Part shown: positions 12,247 to 32,531 of the stretch, one piece after another
Layout: every line of letters begins with the position of its first letter
Position numbering within the stretch: the first letter of the stretch is position 1
NCBI GenBank assembly: GCA_024680795.1
Contig: JAILBR010000023.1
Location: 1-37,562, forward strand
Reading direction: 5' to 3'
DNA length: 37,562 nt
Source of the DNA: Bacilli bacterium
GTDB taxonomy: Bacteria; Bacillota_I; Bacilli_A; RFN20; CAG-826
Position numbers and translations under genes: made by a program
Notes under the pieces: model-generated
Database searches by the model: none
The model's input: the letters and a program-made list of their open reading frames with translations, nothing else
What the model was told of the DNA's origin: nothing

Positions 12247-12276
12247 TTGACACACGCACATACACGAATGTATATT
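12247..12276 (+). promoter_or_regulatory. Promoter of module 1
   Basis: A perfect TTGACA (12247-12252) and TATATT (12271-12276) with an 18-base spacer. Transcription should start near 12283, just before the aptamer. Confidence 0.8.
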
Positions 12277-12285
12277 ACAAATGTC

Positions 12286-12356
12286 AAAAGCAAAATCACA
12301 GTGATGTGGTGACGCAAAGCTATAGGGTCTTATACGTAGAGATAGCCAGTTGCCGG
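12286..12356 (+). promoter_or_regulatory. GEMM-I (cyclic-di-GMP-I type) riboswitch aptamer, copy 1, with A20
   Basis: The core is near consensus: GC at 12290-12291, then P1b ATCACA/TGTGGT (12295-12300/12305-12310) closed by the GNRA tetraloop GTGA. The invariant GACGCAAAGC follows (12311-12320), then P2 GCTAT/ATAGC (12319-12323/12342-12346) containing AGGGTCT, then CAGTTGCCGG. The base just 5' of the G21-C22 pair partners, position 20 in Vc2 numbering, is A (12289) where c-di-GMP aptamers have G. G20 contacts the ligand; G20A is the hallmark change of GEMM-Ib cGAMP sensors, and in Vc2 it gives dual c-di-GMP/cGAMP binding. The family call is firm; the ligand is not. Confidence 0.9.
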
Positions 12357-12389
12357 AAAAAATAAAAACGGTTAACTGGGTTTATTTTT
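12346..12389 (+). terminator. Riboswitch-controlled terminator, copy 1
   Basis: CCAGTT (12346-12351) pairs with AACTGG (12374-12379) and CCG (12353-12355) with CGG (12369-12371), followed by GTTTATTTTT ending at the start codon. The 5' arm is the 3' part of the aptamer, so aptamer and terminator exclude each other. Ligand binding should therefore prevent termination and switch the genes on. Confidence 0.75.
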
Positions 12390-13301
12390 ATGGGAAAGAA
12401 TTTGACGAAAGACAAGAAAAGCTTACTTAAAATTGTAGCGGCAACTTCGGTTGCCATTTTCTCGTTATTGTCCGTGTGCACAGGTGCGTTCGCGTGGTTT
12501 TTAAGTGTGAGAGATCAAAGTGCTGCGTCTAGTTCTTTCTCTGTTAAATCTTATGGAAAGTTTTCTTCGCTAAAATTTCATACATTTGAAGATTCTAGAA
12601 CTGTTTCATCTATCAAATATTTAGACTTCAATGGTGGAACCCCAACCGGCAGTATTACATATGATTGGGAAAGAAATGCATGTAATAATCCTGTTGGCAA
12701 CACAAATATCGTTTTGGATCAGTATGATCCACTAAATCAAAGCCAACCATTATTAGCTATTTTTGAATTGGATAGAGAATACAATACTTCTCTTGATGGA
12801 AGTGTGATGATAAACGCTATTGCATCTAAGAATGATTTTTTAGGAAAAACTAAAAATGATGGAACAACCACATATCGCTTAGGTGTTTTAAATGACCCAA
12901 TGCTTATGCATTATGATAATGGGGTTTATTATTATCCACTTAGCTCTGCTGCCACATTTAAATGTAGAGGATTCTCTGAAGATGAATACGAAGAATGGAT
13001 TTCATCTTGGACATATAGTGATGATGATTATGTTTCCGGATTCTATTCTCTTGCAGATAATTCTTTGACTAATTCTAGAGAAAAGTTTGTTCAAATCACA
13101 AATGAGGTTCCTTCTTTCCACCAAAACATAAATATTTATAACAGTGGTGAAGGACACAATATCAAATATATTGCAGTTGTTATCGACTACGATGCTGATG
13201 CAGTCGAATACATATATTCATCTTTCCTCGGTAATCATTATTTAGAATCAACTGGGTATCATTTGAGTTTTGTGTGTGACTGGGATTGGGAGATAATCTA
13301 A
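12390..13301 (+). CDS. TasA/SipW-type secreted protein, copy 1
   Basis: This 303-residue protein has a basic start, a hydrophobic segment (~12-34) and the motif TGAFAWFLSVRDQSAASSSFSVKSYG. That F/Y-A-W/Y-F-S/T arrangement is the SipW-dependent signal region of TasA/camelysin-family proteins, which form extracellular fibres in Bacillus biofilms. The rest is beta-rich and unrecognised. The C-terminus IYNSGEG...IDYDADA..FVCDWDWEII is strongly conserved in the copy at 18113. It lies directly under a GEMM riboswitch and one base before the giant-protein gene. No good ribosome site precedes the ATG at 12390, because terminator T-run abuts it; a TTG at 12402 after GGGAAAG is an alternative. Fibre formation is inference. 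Confidence 0.72.
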   Translation: MGKNLTKDKKSLLKIVAATSVAIFSLLSVCTGAFAWFLSVRDQSAASSSFSVKSYGKFSSLKFHTFEDSRTVSSIKYLDFNGGTPTGSITYDWERNACNNPVGNTNIVLDQYDPLNQSQPLLAIFELDREYNTSLDGSVMINAIASKNDFLGKTKNDGTTTYRLGVLNDPMLMHYDNGVYYYPLSSAATFKCRGFSEDEYEEWISSWTYSDDDYVSGFYSLADNSLTNSREKFVQITNEVPSFHQNINIYNSGEGHNIKYIAVVIDYDADAVEYIYSSFLGNHYLESTGYHLSFVCDWDWEII

Positions 13302-13302
13302 T

Positions 13303-16300
13303 ATGAAAAAAGTTGGATTATTCAAAGCTATTCTCTTAGCGGTCACCGTCTTAAGTGGTGCGGCTACTGTTGCCGCTACTGCATCATGGTTTATGCCTAA
13401 AGCACAAGTTGAATCCGATAAAGATAGACTTGGTGGATCAACCATGGGTGCTTATTTTGCTTATGGGCAAGGAACAATTAGCCAACCTTATGGAATTACA
13501 AAACCACGTCATTTATACAATTTAGCGTGGTTGCAGTATCTAGGTTTCTTTAAAACACAAACATATTTTGAACTTTCTGATAACATCGATATGTCAGGTT
13601 GGACTCTTCCTCCAATTGGCACTCCTAAAAACCCATTCGTTGGGAACTTTAATGGTCAGGGGTATGTCGTTACCGGCTTAACTGTATCTAATGATTTTAG
13701 TGAATACGGCAATCAACACCCAGCTTCAGTTGACGCTTCAGTATTTAATTCTGGCGATAATCCTGCAACATCAGAAACAACAGAAACCAACAATTATCCA
13801 AACATAGTCGGCTTCTTTGGTGTTGTTGGCAATTATAATAATGCATTTACTGGCACATATAATTCATCAATTAATGAGATGAAAAATATTGGTCTTTCAG
13901 ATATTACCGTTCATACCGAAGCATCGAACTCTTTAATCGGTGCTGCTGCTGGATATGTCGATGCGAAAATGGAAAATGTTGCTGTTGATACTGCAACTTT
14001 ATCAATCGATAGTGGCGCTAATGCATTAACAAGTGGGCCAACAACAAAATTATCTGACTTTTCTATTGTCGGATATACGACTAGAACTAAAAAAATAAGA
14101 AAAGCATCTGAAACCATTTATGACGTTAGTATCGATCATGAAAGCGAATTTAATGTCCCTAGTGGCGGTGATGGAGTTGGTTGGGGTGGATCTATAAATA
14201 TGTATGATCTTCACCAGAGACTTGTTTCTGTAAAAAATAACACCAGAACAGGATCTAACGGGTTTACGAATAGAAAACAAAACTATAATTATAGGACTTA
14301 TTGGACCAGCACACCATCTTTAGATGAAAGCACTCCAGCAACTTTAAGCCAATATGATTCTGATGAAGTAGAAGGCGCGAACGATTATCTATCTTTCTAT
14401 AAGGCAAATGAAAGTGAGAGAGAATTCGGAACATATGCTCTTTATAATAGAATTGATAATGGTACTGTTAATAATCAATATGTATATTTGATGGGTGGTC
14501 AGAACCAGGTCACAACTTTCACGGAATACTATTTAAGTACGCAAATTACTGATGGAAGTGGACATTTTATGTATGTTGCGACACCTAACAATAATGCATC
14601 TGTTACAAATACAAATAATCAAAACATTGCTACTGGTTGGGTAGTACCTTCTAAATCAACTGGCAAGATATACACTGTAAGAAATAATACAAAGTATTAT
14701 TTATCATTTAGTGATGCTAATATGAGTCTTATTTTAAGAACTGGAGAAGCCAATGGAAAAGACTGGACTAGAGACGATTTAAAAAACGACCAAGGCGATG
14801 TCTTAATGACCAGATTTACTACCACAAACGTTAATGATCAAGGTAAAACTATAACTTATTATCTCGAATATGATGATGGCTGGAAACTGACTAAAATGCC
14901 AAGCCCTCCAGACAACATTGGTGTTGAACCACCTAATCCAAGTAGTCCAGATGAATTATTATGGGCAGGAAAAGATAAATATAGGGAACATGGCTATCAA
15001 ATTAGTTATGACAGAAGTACTCAAGATAACACTTTAATATCTTACATGAATGACAACTTTGAGACAGGTGACGTTGGTGGAGTATGGGGTATTGGTGGCG
15101 ACGAGCCATTTTTCACTTCAATTGATAATGAATATACATATGGGTGGCAAATAACTAATTTAACCAATAACGGCACAACAAATATTAAATTTGGAAGCAA
15201 TTATGTGCAAATCAAAGAAACTGATGTTAGTTTGACTGGCTGGATTAAAAACTGGAAAAACCAGATATCTTTTACAAGCAATTCTAGCTCTCCGTATTAT
15301 TGTAACTGGACTGCGAACAAAAGTAATACAGTAGAAGTTGGAGAAGATGGATTAACAATTGAATATTGGTCTTTTAAACTTACTAAAAGATCTGGATACA
15401 GGGGTAACACCACTTATTATCTAGCACCTAGCGTTGGCTCTAGTGGTTGTGCTTTTACGCTTAGTACCACTCAAACTTATTTAAGGATAGTCTCAAACGA
15501 TCAAATCATTTCAATTCATGATGCACCAATTCAAACTACCTATAATCAGCTTCATGGTAAACATGAAGAATGGGTTACCAATACTCAAACCTATGAGCAA
15601 GAATATAATGGCTATCTTGATGATTTAGAAAATACATATGCTATAAATCCAAATGTCGATGGTGTTGTTAGAGGCCCAGATACATACACTGATAGAAATA
15701 ATCCAAACAACGATAGAATGAAGTATTCTTCTGACGATACATCATATATTCCTTTAAATGTTGTTAAGGATGGGACATACTCGAGCATGGCTAATTATGA
15801 GCCGCAGAAGTCCAATACCGGATATATTGTTGGTGGTTCAAAACTGAACGCCAATACAAATGTATTCAATAGTAACGTAGCAGGCATTCGTGTTGCTTAT
15901 TATGATAAATCAACCTATCTCGATGAAAATAGTTATTTTTATGATGATAATTTAATTGCAAACGTTTACACAATTAAGGACAAAGAAGCATCAGCTTATT
16001 CAAATGAACTATTGACTAATCCATCAGCAAAAAGAAGCATGGTATCTGCAATACAAGAGAATCCGAACACTAATAATCCAACCGAGGATAGATCTGCATA
16101 TAAAAAATATTATCGTTCATTTAAAGATTTCCAAACAAAATTAGCTGATAGTGGCAACAATATTTATGGGCTCCATTTTGATGATGCCCAAATTTCTATG
16201 GACAATATAGTCGTTGCGGACAAAGTTCAAATATCAAACTTCTATAACGCAAACAGTTCTGACAAAACATATACAAATTATGAACTTCCTGTTAATTCTA

Positions 16301-17865
16301 TCGATTTTAACTTGAATGATAGAGGATATATTAACTTCTTTGCTGGTACATATTTCGCTGGTGGTGCTGAAGATATTGTTAATTCTTTCTTCTCAATTCA
16401 CCAAGTTATTAGGGATCCAAACAATGGAATGAAGATTAAAGAAATAAAAGAAATTCAAGCCGTTTATTCCGATGGCATAGAAGGGCACTCTTATATTCTT
16501 CAATATAAAGGTTCTCCAATTCAATTATCTATTCCTTATTTGTATAAGGATGGAACTAGATATAACCTCAATCCAAATGGTGAGGCTTCACAAACATATT
16601 TGCCTAAAGATGTACATATTGAAGGGTCAACGATGTATTCTTCTAAATATAGTGATTATGTCAATAATTATGGCTATAAAATGGTTTTCAATACTGATTG
16701 GATTACTAATTTTACAGATGATCCAAGTACCGGAGCTCATGAAATGAATCTTGATATATCAAACAGCAAAAACCGTCTATTCTATTTTGAAATTCCTGTC
16801 AATGAAGGTGAATATTGTTTAGGATCTGTTCCTGGTGGATTGGGTGCTTATTTGCTTTATTTAGACATTGGTGCTAACGCATCAAAAACACAAAGAACTA
16901 CCACAGTCGAACATTTCAATCACGAAGAATTTGTTTACGTTTATCCAGCAGGGGTGGCCTATATTGATATGTCTTCTTCTGCTAGCGATTATACTTCTGG
17001 TGTTAAATACATATCGGAATATGACTACACAAACCAAGCATTTACAACGGATAGAGATATCGATGTAATCGATTCAAACTCTGTTTGTATTGAAATCAAT
17101 GTGGGTTATACTGGCGACTTTGTTGTTGAGAGAACTAGCAATCAAGTTGCTCTTACAAAAGCTGTAACTGGTTCAGATGCTATATATCAAGGCGATGAAG
17201 TCACTTCGTTTATCAATAAATCTGACTCTTCTCCAATTAGTGTCACTCCATTGTCAAGTGAAACTAAGGAAACAGTTAAGATGTGTTATTATGATTTTAG
17301 TGCCTATTTGGAAGATTGGACAATGACCGAAATCATTGATACCAGCACTAATGGTGGTGCTTATTCTAGACAAGTAATTCAACATTTGTATTACGGAACA
17401 GATAAGCAAAAGAATCTGAGATCAACAGAAGCTTCTGAAATAGAATTGATTAATGTTTATGATGTTATCAAAAACAATCAAGGAGAGATAACAGGAGTTA
17501 AGAAATATACTTCTTCTGAATTCATGGATAGATCAGTGCTTGTCATTAATAACAATGACATCAGTTCAACAAAACTTATTGAATTAGAGATTAGGCAAGA
17601 TGCAACGCCTAACACAAGTGGATATATCATAACTCCAACATTTAATTACACGGTGGTAGTTGATCCAAATACATCTGCAAATATTATAGAATTCGATAAT
17701 TACATGCTCGAGTTCCTCGTTGCTGGTAATCAATTGAAAGTTAAAGTTATTGAGGTTGCAAACCAAGCTAATTATAAAGAAGTCTATGTTGGAACAGTTT
17801 CGGCCGGTAATCTTATACTTACAACAGATGCCGGAAGAACAATAACTATCAACGTTAACACATAA
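13303..17865 (+). CDS. Giant secreted surface/matrix protein, copy 1
   Basis: This 1,520-residue protein has an N-terminal hydrophobic segment (~6-28) ending ATASWFMPKA, again like a SipW-type signal. The conserved GSTMGAYFAYG follows (~45-55), then PYGITKPRHLYNLAWLQYLG and a segment DNIDMSGW..PIGTPKNPFVGNFNGQGY (~93-121) like GLUG-type surface domains. A ~500-residue middle differs most from copy 2. A conserved C-terminal third includes IDFNLNDRGYINFFAGTYF and GEYCLGSVPGG..GAYLLYLDIGANA. No LPXTG motif or C-terminal membrane helix is visible, so it is either held by its N-terminal helix or released. GGGAG lies 17-20 bases before the ATG. Adhesin or matrix role is inferred. Confidence 0.72.
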   Translation: MKKVGLFKAILLAVTVLSGAATVAATASWFMPKAQVESDKDRLGGSTMGAYFAYGQGTISQPYGITKPRHLYNLAWLQYLGFFKTQTYFELSDNIDMSGWTLPPIGTPKNPFVGNFNGQGYVVTGLTVSNDFSEYGNQHPASVDASVFNSGDNPATSETTETNNYPNIVGFFGVVGNYNNAFTGTYNSSINEMKNIGLSDITVHTEASNSLIGAAAGYVDAKMENVAVDTATLSIDSGANALTSGPTTKLSDFSIVGYTTRTKKIRKASETIYDVSIDHESEFNVPSGGDGVGWGGSINMYDLHQRLVSVKNNTRTGSNGFTNRKQNYNYRTYWTSTPSLDESTPATLSQYDSDEVEGANDYLSFYKANESEREFGTYALYNRIDNGTVNNQYVYLMGGQNQVTTFTEYYLSTQITDGSGHFMYVATPNNNASVTNTNNQNIATGWVVPSKSTGKIYTVRNNTKYYLSFSDANMSLILRTGEANGKDWTRDDLKNDQGDVLMTRFTTTNVNDQGKTITYYLEYDDGWKLTKMPSPPDNIGVEPPNPSSPDELLWAGKDKYREHGYQISYDRSTQDNTLISYMNDNFETGDVGGVWGIGGDEPFFTSIDNEYTYGWQITNLTNNGTTNIKFGSNYVQIKETDVSLTGWIKNWKNQISFTSNSSSPYYCNWTANKSNTVEVGEDGLTIEYWSFKLTKRSGYRGNTTYYLAPSVGSSGCAFTLSTTQTYLRIVSNDQIISIHDAPIQTTYNQLHGKHEEWVTNTQTYEQEYNGYLDDLENTYAINPNVDGVVRGPDTYTDRNNPNNDRMKYSSDDTSYIPLNVVKDGTYSSMANYEPQKSNTGYIVGGSKLNANTNVFNSNVAGIRVAYYDKSTYLDENSYFYDDNLIANVYTIKDKEASAYSNELLTNPSAKRSMVSAIQENPNTNNPTEDRSAYKKYYRSFKDFQTKLADSGNNIYGLHFDDAQISMDNIVVADKVQISNFYNANSSDKTYTNYELPVNSIDFNLNDRGYINFFAGTYFAGGAEDIVNSFFSIHQVIRDPNNGMKIKEIKEIQAVYSDGIEGHSYILQYKGSPIQLSIPYLYKDGTRYNLNPNGEASQTYLPKDVHIEGSTMYSSKYSDYVNNYGYKMVFNTDWITNFTDDPSTGAHEMNLDISNSKNRLFYFEIPVNEGEYCLGSVPGGLGAYLLYLDIGANASKTQRTTTVEHFNHEEFVYVYPAGVAYIDMSSSASDYTSGVKYISEYDYTNQAFTTDRDIDVIDSNSVCIEINVGYTGDFVVERTSNQVALTKAVTGSDAIYQGDEVTSFINKSDSSPISVTPLSSETKETVKMCYYDFSAYLEDWTMTEIIDTSTNGGAYSRQVIQHLYYGTDKQKNLRSTEASEIELINVYDVIKNNQGEITGVKKYTSSEFMDRSVLVINNNDISSTKLIELEIRQDATPNTSGYIITPTFNYTVVVDPNTSANIIEFDNYMLEFLVAGNQLKVKVIEVANQANYKEVYVGTVSAGNLILTTDAGRTITINVNT

Positions 17866-17879
17866 TTCAATTGACCAAG

Positions 17880-17917
17880 AGTGGTATATCAAAAAAGATA
17901 TATCACTTTTATTTTTA
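17880..17917 (+). terminator. Intrinsic terminator ending module 1
   Basis: AGTGGTATATC (17880-17890) pairs with GATATATCACT (17897-17907) in an 11-bp stem with loop AAAAAA and a T-run. Confidence 0.85.
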
Positions 17918-17957
17918 GACCTTATCGAGATATTTTTATTTAGCAATTTTTTAGGTA

Positions 17958-17986
17958 TTGACTAAGTTATATCAAAGATATATATT
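17958..17986 (+). promoter_or_regulatory. Promoter of module 2
   Basis: TTGACT (17958-17963) and TATATT (17981-17986) with a 17-base spacer, in the same position relative to the aptamer as in module 1. Confidence 0.8.
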
Positions 17987-17991
17987 ACAGG

Positions 17992-18063
17992 TGTCAAAAG
18001 CAAAGCCACAGTGATGTGGTGACGCAAAACTATAGGGTCTTAGTAAAGATAGCCAGTTGCCGG
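17992..18063 (+). promoter_or_regulatory. GEMM-I (cyclic-di-GMP-I type) riboswitch aptamer, copy 2, with A20
   Basis: This is nearly the same RNA as copy 1: G21-C22 (18000-18001), P1b GCCACA/TGTGGT with GTGA tetraloop, GACGCAAAAC, AGGGTCT, then ATAGCCAGTTGCCGG. Position 20 is again A (17999). It differs from copy 1 at the base of P2, where AACTAT replaces AGCTAT, so the closing pair with C18053 becomes A-C. The P2 apical loop is shorter. P1b starts with a G-T instead of an A-T pair. These changes could alter affinity or switching relative to copy 1. Confidence 0.9.
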
Positions 18064-18092
18064 AATAAAATTGGGCAACTGGTTTTGTTTTA
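18053..18092 (+). terminator. Riboswitch-controlled terminator, copy 2
   Basis: A perfect 9-bp stem, CCAGTTGCC (18053-18061) with GGCAACTGG (18074-18082), is followed by TTTTGTTTTATT. The 5' arm again belongs to the aptamer, predicting an ON switch. Unlike copy 1, about 20 bases and a strong ribosome site separate it from the start codon. Confidence 0.85.
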
Positions 18093-18112
18093 TTGGGAGA
18101 CTTAGGGAGAAA

Positions 18113-19030
18113 ATGGGAGACAAACTAGGGAGAAAAAAATCTTTAATTAAGATTGTTGCGGCAACTTCGGTTGTCATTTTCTCTTTACTATCCGTGTGTG
18201 CTGGTGCATTCGCGTGGTTCTTATCCGAAAGAGACCAAAGTGCTGCATCTAGTTCCTTCTCTGTTAAGTCTTATGGAAAGTTTGAATCCATCTCCTTCCA
18301 TAGATTGACCAGCAAAAACGTTAATGTTGCTAATGATAGTACAAGCACTTTTAGTTTTGAAAAGACTGCTTACGGTGCTATTACTTATAATTGGGACACT
18401 GGTAAATATATTCCATCAGGAACAAGCACTAGCCTAACACTTCCTCAATACGATCCTCTTGATCAACATCAACCAGTATTAGCTGTCATTAAGCTAAATA
18501 GAGAATATGACACTGATGGTGGAAGTGTCGTTATTAAAACTACAACTACAGTGGATGGTTTCTTAGGCAAACAAAACGAAACCACTCACGTTAATATTTA
18601 TAAACTTGGAAATCCTTCTGACCCAACTGAAGCTGCTAAGCCAACTTTAAAAATGACAAACGATTACGATGATGGTGTACATGATCGTTATCCTCTTAGC
18701 TCTGTAGCAAATATGAGATGTCAGAATTTCTCTACTACAGAGTACACAACATGGGCTAATGGCTCTACTTTAGATTTAACACTTGGTAACTTAACCGGAA
18801 AGAAATCATTTGTTACTGTTGATAATGCTTTAGGAACATCATCGTTTACCAAGAGCATTGAAGTCTATAATAGTGGCGAAGGTAAAGATATCCAATATAT
18901 TGCTGTCATGATTGACTATGATCCTGACGCAATTGAATATACTTATTCAACATATCTTGGTAATGATATCATGGAATCATATAACTATATTTTGTATTTC
19001 CTCTGTGACTGGGAATGGGAGATTTTCTAA
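18113..19030 (+). CDS. TasA/SipW-type secreted protein, copy 2
   Basis: This 305-residue paralogue of 12390-13301 is almost identical through the export region (KKSLIKIVAATSV, then GAFAWFLSERDQSAASSSF, then VKSYGKF). It diverges in the centre, then is again conserved at IEVYNSGEG...IDYDPDAIEY...CDWEWEIF. The export motif fits the SipW-dependent TasA/camelysin type. I start at the ATG at 18113, three bases after AGGGAGA, and not the in-frame TTG at 18071, which lies inside the terminator loop. The strongest selection seems to act on the two ends, as expected for a subunit whose signal and assembly contacts are fixed while the exposed core varies. That reading is inference. Confidence 0.74.
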   Translation: MGDKLGRKKSLIKIVAATSVVIFSLLSVCAGAFAWFLSERDQSAASSSFSVKSYGKFESISFHRLTSKNVNVANDSTSTFSFEKTAYGAITYNWDTGKYIPSGTSTSLTLPQYDPLDQHQPVLAVIKLNREYDTDGGSVVIKTTTTVDGFLGKQNETTHVNIYKLGNPSDPTEAAKPTLKMTNDYDDGVHDRYPLSSVANMRCQNFSTTEYTTWANGSTLDLTLGNLTGKKSFVTVDNALGTSSFTKSIEVYNSGEGKDIQYIAVMIDYDPDAIEYTYSTYLGNDIMESYNYILYFLCDWEWEIF

Positions 19031-19032
19031 TT

Positions 19033-22000
19033 ATGAAAAAAGTTAATCTCTTCAAACTCGTTATCATGGCCTTGATTGGAATTTCTTCAGCTTCTGTTGT
19101 GGCTGCAACTTTATCTTGGTTTATGCCTAAAGCAACTATTACTAGAACACAAGATAAGTTAAATGGCTCTACAATGGGCGCTTACTTTGCTTATGGTAAT
19201 GGTATTCCAAAACAAAGCGAACAAGATGTTGTTAATAGAGTTTATGGTATCACCAAACCTCGTCACTTATACAACTTAGCGTGGTTACAATATCTTGGTT
19301 ATTTTGAAGAACAAAGTGGCTACCAATATTATTTTGAAATTGGTGATATGGTGGATGAAAATGGTAATCCAACCGATGTTCTTGATATGGAAGGTTGGGT
19401 TATTCCTGCTATCGGAACTGAGGAACATCCATTTATTGGTAACTTCAATGGTAACGGAAAAATAATTGCTAACTTAACTGTTTCAAATGATTTTGGCGAT
19501 TTTTCTAACCACCCTGCCACAATTACTGAAGCAAACTATACTCAAGCTCATATCTTGGGTCTTTTTGGTGTTGTTGGTAATTACGCTCACCAAGTTACTC
19601 CTACTGAAGGAACTAGCTTAACTTATGGTTATTATACAGATAGAGCGTGTACTATTCAGGCAATTGGTACTGCGAATGGTTCTATTTCATATTGGAGAAA
19701 ATACGATGAGGCAAATGAAACTGGCCCAAGATCATATAGTTCTTCGATTAATGAATTAACAAATACCGGCATAACAAATATTACAATTACAACAGCTTTA
19801 GATGATACATTGATTGGCATGGCAGCAGGATATATTAACGGTAATATGTCTAACATCGCTGTCGATGCTGGTACTTTTAATGTAACTACAACAAGCAATG
19901 AAAACGCCACGACTTCTTATGGTGGTTTTACAAGCAATATTTCTGACCATAGTGTTGTTGGATATACTACTAACAAAAAGAATATTAAGAAAGTCACACA
20001 CGACTTATATGATGTTAATGTTTCTGCCAACCATGAATTTAACGCTTCTGATAGCGGTGATGCTCAAGGTTGGGGTGGCTCTATTAATATGAAAACAATT
20101 TATGAGAGACTATATGCGATTAAAGCTAAGGGGTTGGTCTCTACGGAAAATTCTTTTGGATATAAAAGAGTGACTACATATTATGATGGGGTTAAGGATG
20201 ATTCAAGTGAAACCGATACCTACACTTCAAATTATATGCAATCTTATCATGGATATAATGTCAGTGGTCATGAATATATTGGAAATTATTTTTACATGAA
20301 TAGAGGTTCAAGTTCTGACCAATGGATGTATTTGTCTGGTGGTCATTATGAAAATAGTACGTACAACAAATACTACGAACATGAAGGATATCACATTACA
20401 GATGGAACCAATTATTTAGATTATCGTGGAAGTGATTTAGAAAATTATAATGGCGATAGTCCAAATACAATGGCGTTACCATGGGATTTTGTTTCTGCCG
20501 GAGGTTCAAGTTATTATATTAGAACCAATTACAACAACGCTACCAACAACCGTTATTTGTATAACAGCAATGGCGAATTAAAGATTGCTAGTGGAACCAC
20601 AACAAACTCAAATGCAATATGGGAATTTACTGAATCAGGCGAAGATGACTTAATTATTTCGAATGGCAATAAGAAAATCTATTATTATAATGGTTCATGG
20701 CAATTGATTCCAACAACCGACCAGACGGACAATTATTACATTATTAAAAGTGGTAGCAATTATATAAGTAAAAATAGCTCAAATAATAGTAATGTTTCAA
20801 ACACAACAAGCGAGTCTGATGCCGCACGTTTTTACATTGAACCAAGTACAAATAATCTCTATTTTATGAATGGAGGCACAAAGCAATATTTGGCCATCTA
20901 CTACACTTATACAACAAACTGGCGTAATAGGGTAGAAAGTGATTCATATGCTATTTGCACAACAAACAATTATAATCAGTCTGTTGATCAAGGTGGATAT
21001 TATTGCTTCTCGGTTGATGTAAACAATAAGATAAAATCTACTGTTCATGTTGCTGATAATGGCAGTGGTGGGTGGTTTGGATCAATCACATTTACGGATA
21101 CTGTTAACTATTTGTATTACAGTGGAGGATGGTCGCGAACAACTACAAGCGGCAGTTCTTTAACGCCAACATCAAAAAGCGAAACCGTTCAATATTCTAA
21201 TTACAAATTAGTAAATACTTTCAATGATGACAAAGTTAAAGTACTTGGGCCTGATTATTATCCAGATTCTCCATCATCAGTAAATAAAATGTATTTTGAT
21301 TATGATGATACTACTTATTTTCCTCTTAATGTTGAACATGATGGTAAAAGTTCTTACGTAGAAAATGGTGTAACGATAACCCCTAATTTAGAGAACAAAG
21401 AAGGAGTGGAAAGCGCTATTGCCAATGGCAACTTTGATCCTAAGGATAGTAATACTGGATATATAGTTGCTGGGTCAGATTATAGTAGTATCACCGGCAA
21501 TAATCCTTCTATGTCTGGAAGCTCAAGCTCAGATACAAATAATAGAAATAACATCAGTAAAATGCGTATTTCATCATACGCAATATCAAATGTCAGCGGA
21601 TCATTCAATCCTGCCAATGCTTCTGTTGTTCTTGATACGGATTTTCCTCATTCTAACATATTAACAATTCTTCCTAATGGAACATTGACAAATATTGGTC
21701 AGGTGTATGGGAATGACAGCACGACCATCTACTCTAGGTACAAAAAATCAAGAGAGTCATTCTTTGAGAATGCGCTAACAACAAATACTGTTAATGGTGG
21801 AACAAAAACTTATTCGAAAGCCAGTAATATTTATGGTTTGCACTTTATGGATACGTCCATAAACATTAATAGCGTTGTCAATGCTTCAAAAGTTAGTGTT
21901 TTAGGAAATAAATGCGATAATTATCAAATGCCGGTGCATAGTATCGATTTTAATCTAAAGCAAAAGGGTGTTATTAACTTCTTTGCTGGAACGTATTTCA

Positions 22001-23505
22001 CAGATAACAATTCTTTCTTCTCTTTACATGAAATTATTAGAAATAATGATGCTGTTCAAAAGAAAGATGGCAGTGGAAACGTAATTGAAGGACAATACAC
22101 AAGTTACAATACCATCAAGGAAATTAAAGAAATTGAAGAAATATTCATTACAAGTGAAGAAGTTGGTGATAAAACATCAAAATACTCTGTTATATATAAA
22201 TACAAAGGTAAAACTGGTAATGAAATGTATTCAGTTCCATTCAGAATTGATGGAAATCAAAATAAGTTTGTGATGAATATGAGTAACACTAATGACAACA
22301 TTACGCCTTATACTTATTCAACAATGGGGACTGATGATTTTAATAGTTATGTCACTACTTATGGATATGTTTCTAGATTTAAAACAAGTCAAATTGGAGT
22401 TAATTCAGGCATTTCGAGCAATTCAAACAAGATATTCTATTATGAATTCCCAATGAATCCAGGTGAATACTGTTTAGGATCTGTTTCTGGTGGTACTGGT
22501 GCTTATCTCCTCTATCTTGATATTGGTGCTAACGCAGCGAAAACTCAAAGAACTATTTTCTATGAGCACTTCAAATATACTGATTTGACATTTGATTATC
22601 CTGTTGGTGTTGCTATCGTTGCAACTTCAACTGTTGCGGATAATGTTGAAAATGGTACAGCTCTAGATGAAACAAATACAGCTAATACTGTCGTGAAAGC
22701 TGGTTATAAAGGTGCGTTTAGTATCACAAGGAGTGGTAATAGTGTTTCGATATCTAGAGAATCTAGTTTTACCGCTAATGCGAAACCAACACTGGTTGGA
22801 GAACTGATGTGGGACAATTCACATCAGATGTATAATATACATATTCCACTGAGTGACGGAGACACGGGCTTCGAGAGCAACAAGAACCTGACTAGCGAGA
22901 TAACTGCTAAAGAGACACATATAACTGATACAAGAAGAGTTTATTATGTTGACTATAACGTCAACCTTGATGAATACACAAAAACTCAAATTATTGATAC
23001 AAAAGTTGATAATGGTGCGGTTAATAGAACATATTATCAAGAGTATTCAGACGGTACTTCATCAACTAATGTTGATAATATTAAGGTATATAACACAAAT
23101 GGTGGTACAAGATATACTTCATCAGAATTAGCATATTCAGAATCTGCCGGAGTTGATAATTCCAATGTTAAGACATATGATACAACTCTTGGCATTAACA
23201 ATACCATGATTCTCAAATTCAAATATGAAGAACCATCAGGTGCTGAGGTTACAGCGGAACTTGTTCTATCGTATGAGGCCGATGGAACATATTCACCAAA
23301 GGTATATCAGAAATTTAAAGAGTATGAATATACAGTATCATGTACCGGAAGTGATATTGTAATTACTATTATTGATAGGAGCAGTGGAGAAGGTGCTAAA
23401 GTCATTAAAATTAACACCGAATCAATTACAAAGACTGGGGCCGGGACTCAACAAAGTCCTTATGTGATAACTCCAACAACAATTTCGGTAACAAAAACTT
23501 CTTAA
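19033..23505 (+). CDS. Giant secreted surface/matrix protein, copy 2
   Basis: This 1,490-residue paralogue of 13303-17865 has the same order: hydrophobic N-terminus ending AATLSWFMPKA, GSTMGAYFAYG, YGITKPRHLYNLAWLQYLG, a GLUG-like PAIGTEEHPFIGNFNGNGK segment, a long Asn/Ser/Tyr-rich middle and the conserved C-terminal IDFNLKQKGVINFFAGTYF and GEYCLGSVSGGTGAYLLYL blocks. The middle (~480-720) has runs like YYIRTNYNNATNNRYLYNSNG and YYIIKSGSNYISKNSS that suggest lectin-like beta-trefoil repeats, a weak call. There is no LPXTG and no C-terminal helix. I start at the ATG at 19033 to match copy 1; the in-frame ATG at 19015 overlaps the upstream gene. GGGAG at 19017-19021 is the likely ribosome site. 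Confidence 0.73.
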   Translation: MKKVNLFKLVIMALIGISSASVVAATLSWFMPKATITRTQDKLNGSTMGAYFAYGNGIPKQSEQDVVNRVYGITKPRHLYNLAWLQYLGYFEEQSGYQYYFEIGDMVDENGNPTDVLDMEGWVIPAIGTEEHPFIGNFNGNGKIIANLTVSNDFGDFSNHPATITEANYTQAHILGLFGVVGNYAHQVTPTEGTSLTYGYYTDRACTIQAIGTANGSISYWRKYDEANETGPRSYSSSINELTNTGITNITITTALDDTLIGMAAGYINGNMSNIAVDAGTFNVTTTSNENATTSYGGFTSNISDHSVVGYTTNKKNIKKVTHDLYDVNVSANHEFNASDSGDAQGWGGSINMKTIYERLYAIKAKGLVSTENSFGYKRVTTYYDGVKDDSSETDTYTSNYMQSYHGYNVSGHEYIGNYFYMNRGSSSDQWMYLSGGHYENSTYNKYYEHEGYHITDGTNYLDYRGSDLENYNGDSPNTMALPWDFVSAGGSSYYIRTNYNNATNNRYLYNSNGELKIASGTTTNSNAIWEFTESGEDDLIISNGNKKIYYYNGSWQLIPTTDQTDNYYIIKSGSNYISKNSSNNSNVSNTTSESDAARFYIEPSTNNLYFMNGGTKQYLAIYYTYTTNWRNRVESDSYAICTTNNYNQSVDQGGYYCFSVDVNNKIKSTVHVADNGSGGWFGSITFTDTVNYLYYSGGWSRTTTSGSSLTPTSKSETVQYSNYKLVNTFNDDKVKVLGPDYYPDSPSSVNKMYFDYDDTTYFPLNVEHDGKSSYVENGVTITPNLENKEGVESAIANGNFDPKDSNTGYIVAGSDYSSITGNNPSMSGSSSSDTNNRNNISKMRISSYAISNVSGSFNPANASVVLDTDFPHSNILTILPNGTLTNIGQVYGNDSTTIYSRYKKSRESFFENALTTNTVNGGTKTYSKASNIYGLHFMDTSININSVVNASKVSVLGNKCDNYQMPVHSIDFNLKQKGVINFFAGTYFTDNNSFFSLHEIIRNNDAVQKKDGSGNVIEGQYTSYNTIKEIKEIEEIFITSEEVGDKTSKYSVIYKYKGKTGNEMYSVPFRIDGNQNKFVMNMSNTNDNITPYTYSTMGTDDFNSYVTTYGYVSRFKTSQIGVNSGISSNSNKIFYYEFPMNPGEYCLGSVSGGTGAYLLYLDIGANAAKTQRTIFYEHFKYTDLTFDYPVGVAIVATSTVADNVENGTALDETNTANTVVKAGYKGAFSITRSGNSVSISRESSFTANAKPTLVGELMWDNSHQMYNIHIPLSDGDTGFESNKNLTSEITAKETHITDTRRVYYVDYNVNLDEYTKTQIIDTKVDNGAVNRTYYQEYSDGTSSTNVDNIKVYNTNGGTRYTSSELAYSESAGVDNSNVKTYDTTLGINNTMILKFKYEEPSGAEVTAELVLSYEADGTYSPKVYQKFKEYEYTVSCTGSDIVITIIDRSSGEGAKVIKINTESITKTGAGTQQSPYVITPTTISVTKTS

Positions 23506-31670: not shown

Positions 31671-31745
31671 AATATACGGGGTTTTCATTGAATATATTTA
31701 TTATTCAATTATAATTAGTATATCTGAGTGATCGGAGGAATTTTT

Positions 31746-32531
31746 ATGGTAGTTTCATTCGTATGGGAAAATGTGCCAACCCTTAACTGGATTCTCTCAC
31801 TAGTTCTCATCGTCGCAATATATGGTCTCTTATTCTATATGTTCGCTAAAATAATTAAGCGAACCACAGGTTATATCATGCTAGCGGTTTCCGCTACAGC
31901 AGGATTATTAACATTTATCTTTTATCTCCAATATATCTTTGCTTTTGTCGAAGTATTAACTGGAGTTGGTATCACCATCTCCCTATTCTCAAACTTAGGA
32001 GATTTAAGACAGTTCTTAGCTAACCCATTTAAGACAAGCCGTATCAAAGCTTCGAAAGTGGCAGTGGAAAAGATTTATAATCGAGAAGAACTTTATAAGA
32101 TTATCGAAACCACAGTTATTAACCTTTCTAAAACTAGAACTGGGGCAATCATGACATTTGAAAAGAATACTTCTTTAGCGGATGTTATGAAGAATGGTGT
32201 ATTCGTAAACGCACCTGTTACTAGCGAACTTTTAACCACAATTTTCTATCCAGGTACCAGACTTCATGATGGCGCAGTCATTATCAAAGATAATGTGATT
32301 GTCGCTGCTGCAGTTTTCTATACCCCAACCACTAAACCGTTTGCTGGTAAATATGGTTCTCGTCATAGAGCAGCGATTGGTATTTCTGAAATCAGTGATG
32401 CAGTCACTATCGTTGTTAGTGAAGAAACTGGACGTATCTCCTTTGCGGTCAATGGACAACTCGATACAGTTACCCAAGAAACCTTCTTAAGAGCGTTTGA
32501 AAACTACATGGATGGAGTTACTGGTGAATAA
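31746..32531 (+). CDS. cdaA: Diadenylate cyclase CdaA (c-di-AMP synthase)
   Basis: This 261-residue protein has three N-terminal membrane helices (to ~residue 85) and a DAC domain. The catalytic DGA motif is at 175-177 (TRLHDGAVIIKD) and the RHR motif at 206-208 (GSRHRAAIGISE). It condenses two ATP to c-di-AMP, which controls potassium and osmotic balance in Firmicutes. I start at the ATG at 31746, six bases after GGAGGA; the in-frame GTG at 31728 is upstream of that site. The next gene overlaps by one base (TAATG). The usual partners cdaR and glmM are absent. Confidence 0.93.
   Translation: MVVSFVWENVPTLNWILSLVLIVAIYGLLFYMFAKIIKRTTGYIMLAVSATAGLLTFIFYLQYIFAFVEVLTGVGITISLFSNLGDLRQFLANPFKTSRIKASKVAVEKIYNREELYKIIETTVINLSKTRTGAIMTFEKNTSLADVMKNGVFVNAPVTSELLTTIFYPGTRLHDGAVIIKDNVIVAAAVFYTPTTKPFAGKYGSRHRAAIGISEISDAVTIVVSEETGRISFAVNGQLDTVTQETFLRAFENYMDGVTGE

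Follow-up and report, generated by a model that had tools for sequence, protein, structure and literature searches.

The window considered here comprises 37,562 nt of contig JAILBR010000023.1, assembly GCA_024680795.1, from a Bacilli bacterium (GTDB lineage Bacteria; Bacillota_I; Bacilli_A; RFN20; CAG-826), and contains two GEMM-I riboswitch aptamers (RF01051), each followed by a pair of genes for probable exported or surface proteins (Table 1). Base 20 of these aptamers (Vc2 numbering) is used to tell riboswitches for 3',3'-cyclic GMP-AMP (cGAMP) from those for cyclic di-GMP (c-di-GMP), and in both window aptamers it is A in place of the consensus G, which the RF01051 model does not require. 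To judge from their sequences, the two RNAs are most likely A20 members of the known GEMM-I class: a preliminary description of this DNA read the base correctly, and was most likely mistaken about the rarity that it ascribed to A20 and the change of ligand that it implied.

The RF01051 covariance model matched both aptamers end to end (1-87 of 87), above the gathering score of 35. Base 20 was read from model column 11, directly before the G12-C13/G36-C37 pairs of lower P2, and we take this column to be the site of Vc2 G20; the alignment bears out the A that the preliminary description had placed at this site in each aptamer. According to PMC9262584, the equivalent base in Cd1 is G11. The window aptamers share with the c-di-GMP-I riboswitches Vc2 and Cd1 the whole fold, the GNRA loop (GTGA in both), the GACGCAAA core, a GC/GC lower P2 in place of the Geobacter-type CU/GG, and an intact equivalent of C92, and differ from them in having A at position 20, where they have G. 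Minimum-free-energy folds of the bare aptamers contained no GEMM fold and were not better than those of shuffled sequences (z 0.56 and -0.53), as expected of a ligand-stabilized RNA, and no support was drawn from them. A covariance model of our own predicted a structure without P3 and hence was not used for searching.

Table 1. Coordinates of riboswitch elements and genes discussed in the text.
Feature	Position	Strand	Basis
Promoter-like TTGACA-18-TATATT before aptamer 1	12247..12276	+	11/12 consensus matches
GEMM-I aptamer 1 (RF01051)	12279..12357	+	59.8 bits
A at Vc2-20 position, aptamer 1	12289	+	RF01051 alignment, column 11 (12279+10)
C92 equivalent, aptamer 1	12353	+	RF01051 alignment
Predicted terminator 1, 5' arm shared with aptamer 3' strand (CCAGUUG / UAACUGG, then U-rich tract)	12346..12389	+	strand overlap
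303-aa probable exported protein with a hydrophobic N terminus that ends in AWF	12390..13301	+	sequence
1520-aa protein, N-terminal signal-like stretch, probably surface	13303..17865	+	sequence
Promoter-like TTGACT-17-TATATT before aptamer 2	17958..17986	+	10/12 consensus matches
GEMM-I aptamer 2 (RF01051)	17989..18064	+	59.0 bits
A at Vc2-20 position, aptamer 2	17999	+	RF01051 alignment, column 11 (17989+10)
C92 equivalent, aptamer 2	18060	+	RF01051 alignment
Predicted terminator 2, overlapping aptamer 3' strand (CCAGUUGCC / GGCAACUGG, then U tract)	18053..18094	+	strand overlap
305-aa paralogue of 303-aa protein	18113..19030	+	51% identity in alignment
1490-aa paralogue of 1520-aa protein	19033..23505	+	alignment
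Diadenylate cyclase of the CdaA type, unconnected with the riboswitches	31728..32531	+	PF02457, E 2.8e-37

Each aptamer match is preceded by a sigma-70-like -10 hexamer that ends 3 positions upstream of it. One promoter was found in the scan before aptamer 1, and shuffled sequences gave 1.3 on average; the argument for this promoter is therefore its position and not the count. On the downstream side, the 5' arm of each predicted terminator is the 3' strand of the aptamer itself (in terminator 2, AGCCAGUUGCC pairs with GGCAACUGGUU). The stretches 12339-12391 and 18046-18096 fold with -14.2 and -21.1 kcal/mol (z -3.08 and -4.91, respectively), in both cases better than all 200 shuffles. Since a ligand would keep the shared strand in the aptamer and thereby block the terminator, this layout points to an ON switch. 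Terminator control is found in many c-di-GMP-I members, and the Geobacter pilM riboswitch of the GEMM-Ib class is likewise an ON switch whose terminator overlaps the aptamer 3' strand (PMC9262584).

The switch and its two genes form a unit that is duplicated as a whole in tandem (12279-23505). The large paralogues are 34% identical over 611 alignment columns and 30% identical over 730; the frame listed for the 305-aa protein starts at TTG 18071, and ATG 18113 is the likelier start. Pfam and NCBIfam searches of the riboswitch-regulated window proteins matched no family, and a profile of 20 regulated proteins gave one weak match to a SipW signal (E 0.033) in NCBIfam and none among PDB sequences. 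Folding of the 303-aa protein from its sequence alone gave a mean predicted local distance difference test score (pLDDT) of 34.6, and the model was not used.

Base 20 in the host family and its regulated genes

GEMM-I riboswitches were found in 92 of the 196 genomes surveyed in the host family. Base 20 was read in 134 loci from 73 genomes (4 from the host, 30 returned, and 100 fetched from a list favoring high scores), 128 of them by a regular expression requiring C at position 92 and the other 6 by eye. A is present in 75 loci, G in 58, and C in one (L325), and both A20 and G20 occur in 21 genomes. One of the loci read by eye, L284 (G20), has U at position 92. A strict pattern applied to 392 genomes of the phylum gave A in 15 of the 18 matches inside the host family and in 13 of the 102 outside it (listed matches, counted by eye), and at least 120 stretches of the A20 form were obtained from 84,980 species genomes. 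Among the 80 matches listed from the latter scan, most are from Firmicutes, with many Clostridia and Bacilli; others are from Colwellia, Photorhabdus, and Desulfuromonas. A20 is common outside Geobacter and is the majority state in the host family; the earlier view that it would be notable outside Geobacter-like bacteria was rejected on the phylum, species-genome, and family scans. A literature search for A20 in Firmicutes returned only unrelated papers.

Based on profiles of the regulated proteins, the loci were sorted into two protein families and a GGDEF family, with 34 loci unassigned (16 A20, 18 G20). The first family, which includes the AWF exported proteins of the window, is preceded by 27 A20 and 22 G20 riboswitches, the second family of basic membrane-anchored proteins by 32 A20, 11 G20, and 1 C20, and the GGDEF family by 7 G20 and no A20. 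Homologues of the large window protein stand behind 28 A20 and 19 G20 switches (47/134 loci). Quick maximum-likelihood trees of the regulated proteins, the second without the C20 row, require at least 17 changes of base 20 over the 49 rows of the first family (16.4 on average after shuffling of the labels, with 367 of 500 shuffles as low) and at least 9 over the 43 rows of the second (9.8 on average, with 174 of 500 shuffles as low). Of these, 12 and 7 changes, respectively, are already required by the well-supported branches. Base 20 differs between close relatives (L025 with A20 and L328 with G20; L287 with A20 and L313 with G20), and also between paralogues within one genome (L315 with A20 and L022 with G20). 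None of 42 other aptamer columns co-varies with base 20 beyond chance once their number is corrected for (lowest uncorrected p 0.0048), in the 120 rows left after removal of GGDEF-upstream loci and of loci whose P2 differs in length or that the regular expression did not match. Base 20 neither follows the genes nor carries further changes with it, which is unlike the expectation for a stable ligand class.

A crude automatic scan for switch direction, covering the 127 family loci other than those upstream of GGDEF genes, assigned 71 loci to ON and 36 to OFF, many of the latter by weak stems, with 1 partial and 19 without an assignment. In each of the seven GGDEF-upstream loci (L001, L004, L327, L338, L342, L343, and L346) the terminator is clear of the aptamer, as in an OFF switch, and the base after C92 is A, not C.

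Cyclases in the host and its relatives

The host genome (1.33 Mb in 72 contigs, 74% complete) contains four GEMM-I riboswitches; the two outside the window are of the G20 form, and each lies directly upstream of a GGDEF gene. The selectivity column of GGDEF proteins was placed at the D of the GHxxG[D] motif. In the cGAMP cyclase GacA, the selectivity position is occupied by Ser347/348 (PMC6456294, PMC8835794). The preliminary description had proposed a genome search for GGDEF proteins and Hypr-type or DncV-like cyclases; this yielded 12 GGDEF domains and no SMODS domain in the 74% of the host genome that is covered. Nine of the 12 domains retain the GG[DE]E[FI] motif, all nine with Asp at the selectivity position, and the remaining three are degenerate and followed by apparent EAL domains (recognized by eye, with no family search). 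From these residues, the organism should be able to make c-di-GMP. A cGAMP cyclase, either a Ser/Thr-type GGDEF protein or a CD-NTase, was not found in the host genome at this level of completeness.

Across the 196 genomes, GEMM-I and GGDEF occur together in 87, GEMM-I alone in 5, GGDEF alone in 15, and neither in 89 (Fisher p 5e-33, without correction for kinship), and each of the 50 genomes in which an A20 locus was read has GGDEF. Among the genomes with GEMM-I alone is G013 (94% complete), whose locus L017 (81.5 bits) is of the G20 form. The diadenylate cyclase (DAC) domain is nearly universal (189/196 genomes, with or without GEMM-I); thus, GEMM-I tracks GGDEF and not the diadenylate cyclase.

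Selectivity residues were surveyed in 25 genomes, mostly chosen for A20, which gave 143 GGDEF matches, counted without one duplicate; for G100, G162, G194, G074, and G107, the survey covered all but a few matches, which were not retrieved or were missed by the local profile. The motif is kept in 105 of the 143, with Asp in 96, Asn in 3, Cys in 3, Ser in 1, Ala in 1, and a gap in 1, and 16 of the 25 genomes have Asp-type GGDEF only. Two nearly complete genomes, G037 (94%) and G138 (99%), each encode a single GGDEF protein of the Asp type and have A20 in 2/2 and 2/3 of the GEMM-I loci read, respectively. The same pattern was observed in G107, G144, G173, and G182, which are 69-81% complete, and G120 (96% complete) has one intact GGDEF and degenerate ones. 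A CD-NTase of the SMODS type was detected in one of the 25 genomes, and not in the host (G000), G037, or G138. DNA patterns for Ser-, Thr-, and Cys-type GGDEF matched in 16 of the 196 genomes, which as proteins gave 2 Ser-type and 8 Cys-type domains, none of them in the host genome. The Cys-type subfamily (L050, L052-L056, L058, and L059) is characterized by NDxYGHRYGC, where Cys replaces the selectivity Asp while the GGDEF motif is intact.

Candidate ligands of the window riboswitches

It is quite likely that the window RNAs are c-di-GMP-I ON switches, with c-di-GMP as the most probable ligand and with a naturally interchangeable base 20. In the absence of ligand, the aptamer 3' strand (CCAGUUGCC in aptamer 2) would pair with its downstream complement to form an intrinsic terminator; with ligand bound, the aptamer would hold this strand and let transcription proceed into the operon of two genes that encode exported surface proteins. 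The c-di-GMP would be supplied by ordinary Asp-type GGDEF cyclases, and A20 would tune affinity or relax base discrimination, so that A20 alone would be no mark of the cGAMP class. Cd1 carrying A at the Vc2-20 equivalent still binds c-di-GMP (PMC9262584). The two G20 riboswitches of the host that precede GGDEF genes, with terminators clear of the aptamer, would fit negative feedback on c-di-GMP synthesis.

Several points weigh against c-di-GMP as the ligand. In the Geobacter RNA Gmet_0970, A20G switches a cGAMP aptamer to c-di-GMP (PMC6456294). In Desulfobacca acetoxidans, an aptamer with A20 shows markedly better binding of cyclic AMP-GMP (c-AMP-GMP), with c-di-GMP binding perhaps slightly weaker (PMC9481103). 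The riboswitches upstream of GGDEF genes are G20 in all seven cases (hypergeometric 0.0024, not corrected for kinship), a possible sign that the two forms are read differently; the same distribution suggests a preference for G20 in switches that provide feedback on c-di-GMP synthesis. Ser-type GGDEF proteins (L057, L063/L205) and Cys-type ones (8 loci) occur in the family, L057 belonging to G116 from the same genus as the host, and a Hypr cyclase could be missing from a host genome that is 74% complete.

These points would be accommodated to different degrees by other ligands. Dual sensing of c-di-GMP and cGAMP, the latter arising as a by-product or from the few non-Asp GGDEF enzymes, is an unlikely explanation, although the D. 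acetoxidans aptamer binds both ligands, the window aptamers have the GC/GC lower P2 that is canonical for c-di-GMP aptamers, and Cys- and Ser-type GGDEF proteins exist in some relatives; neither the host genome nor several A20-only relatives yielded a cGAMP source. The D. acetoxidans aptamer (cluster 3 in PMC9481103) has, like those of the window, A20 in an otherwise c-di-GMP-type RNA and highly similar G20 aptamers in the same genome, but it stands in tandem with a cobalamin riboswitch, and its binding was measured. Its example makes plausible the relaxed specificity raised in the preliminary description, and A20 may additionally allow the window aptamers to respond to cGAMP. It is improbable that A20 switches form a cGAMP regulon outside Deltaproteobacteria in the Bacilli of the host family, in which they would turn on surface-protein operons through cGAMP made in some species by Ser-/Cys-type GGDEF proteins and in others by an unrecognized cyclase, while G20 switches in the same cells report c-di-GMP.

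Still more doubtful is that the window RNAs belong strictly to the cGAMP (GEMM-Ib) class, the host's Hypr-type or other cGAMP cyclase having been missed. They share A20 with the Geobacter riboswitches Gs1761 and pilM, and the host's incompleteness and the Ser-type GGDEF of G116 leave room for such an enzyme; A and G, however, replace each other ahead of the same genes and among close relatives, A20 is present in genomes that lack SMODS and have only one GGDEF protein, of the Asp type, and the window's gene contexts are common to G20 members. The window lower P2 also differs from the CU/GG (C-G/U-G) type, which we take, following PMC9262584, to be a determinant of the cGAMP class. In one Geobacteraceae genome, L234 and L237 combine A20 with CU/GG, and L223 and L228 combine A20 with GC/GC. 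In pilM, a G-U pair lies next to the pocket (PMC9262584). The A20 of Geobacter is a cGAMP determinant (PMC6456294), and the change of ligand that the preliminary description took from it is not supported in view of the A/G interchange and of A20 in genomes whose only GGDEF enzyme is canonical; the strict class was rejected on this interchange and on the lack of a detected cyclase. Hardly conceivable is sensing of cyclic di-AMP (c-di-AMP), which the preliminary description had linked to the CdaA gene of the window: C92 is kept in both aptamers, whereas Vc2 was reportedly made to bind c-di-AMP by G20A plus C92U (PDB 3MUV), and the distribution of GEMM-I is tied to GGDEF and not to the DAC domain, on which grounds this ligand was rejected.

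If base 20 swaps freely before the same genes throughout the family, it would be unusable alone for the annotation of ligands, and public GEMM-I sets would contain many RNAs wrongly suspected of sensing cGAMP. The family also provides a natural experiment, with closely matched A20 and G20 riboswitches before the same operons, such as L286 (A20) and L043 (G20), and with some of these pairs in genomes that have a single cyclase.

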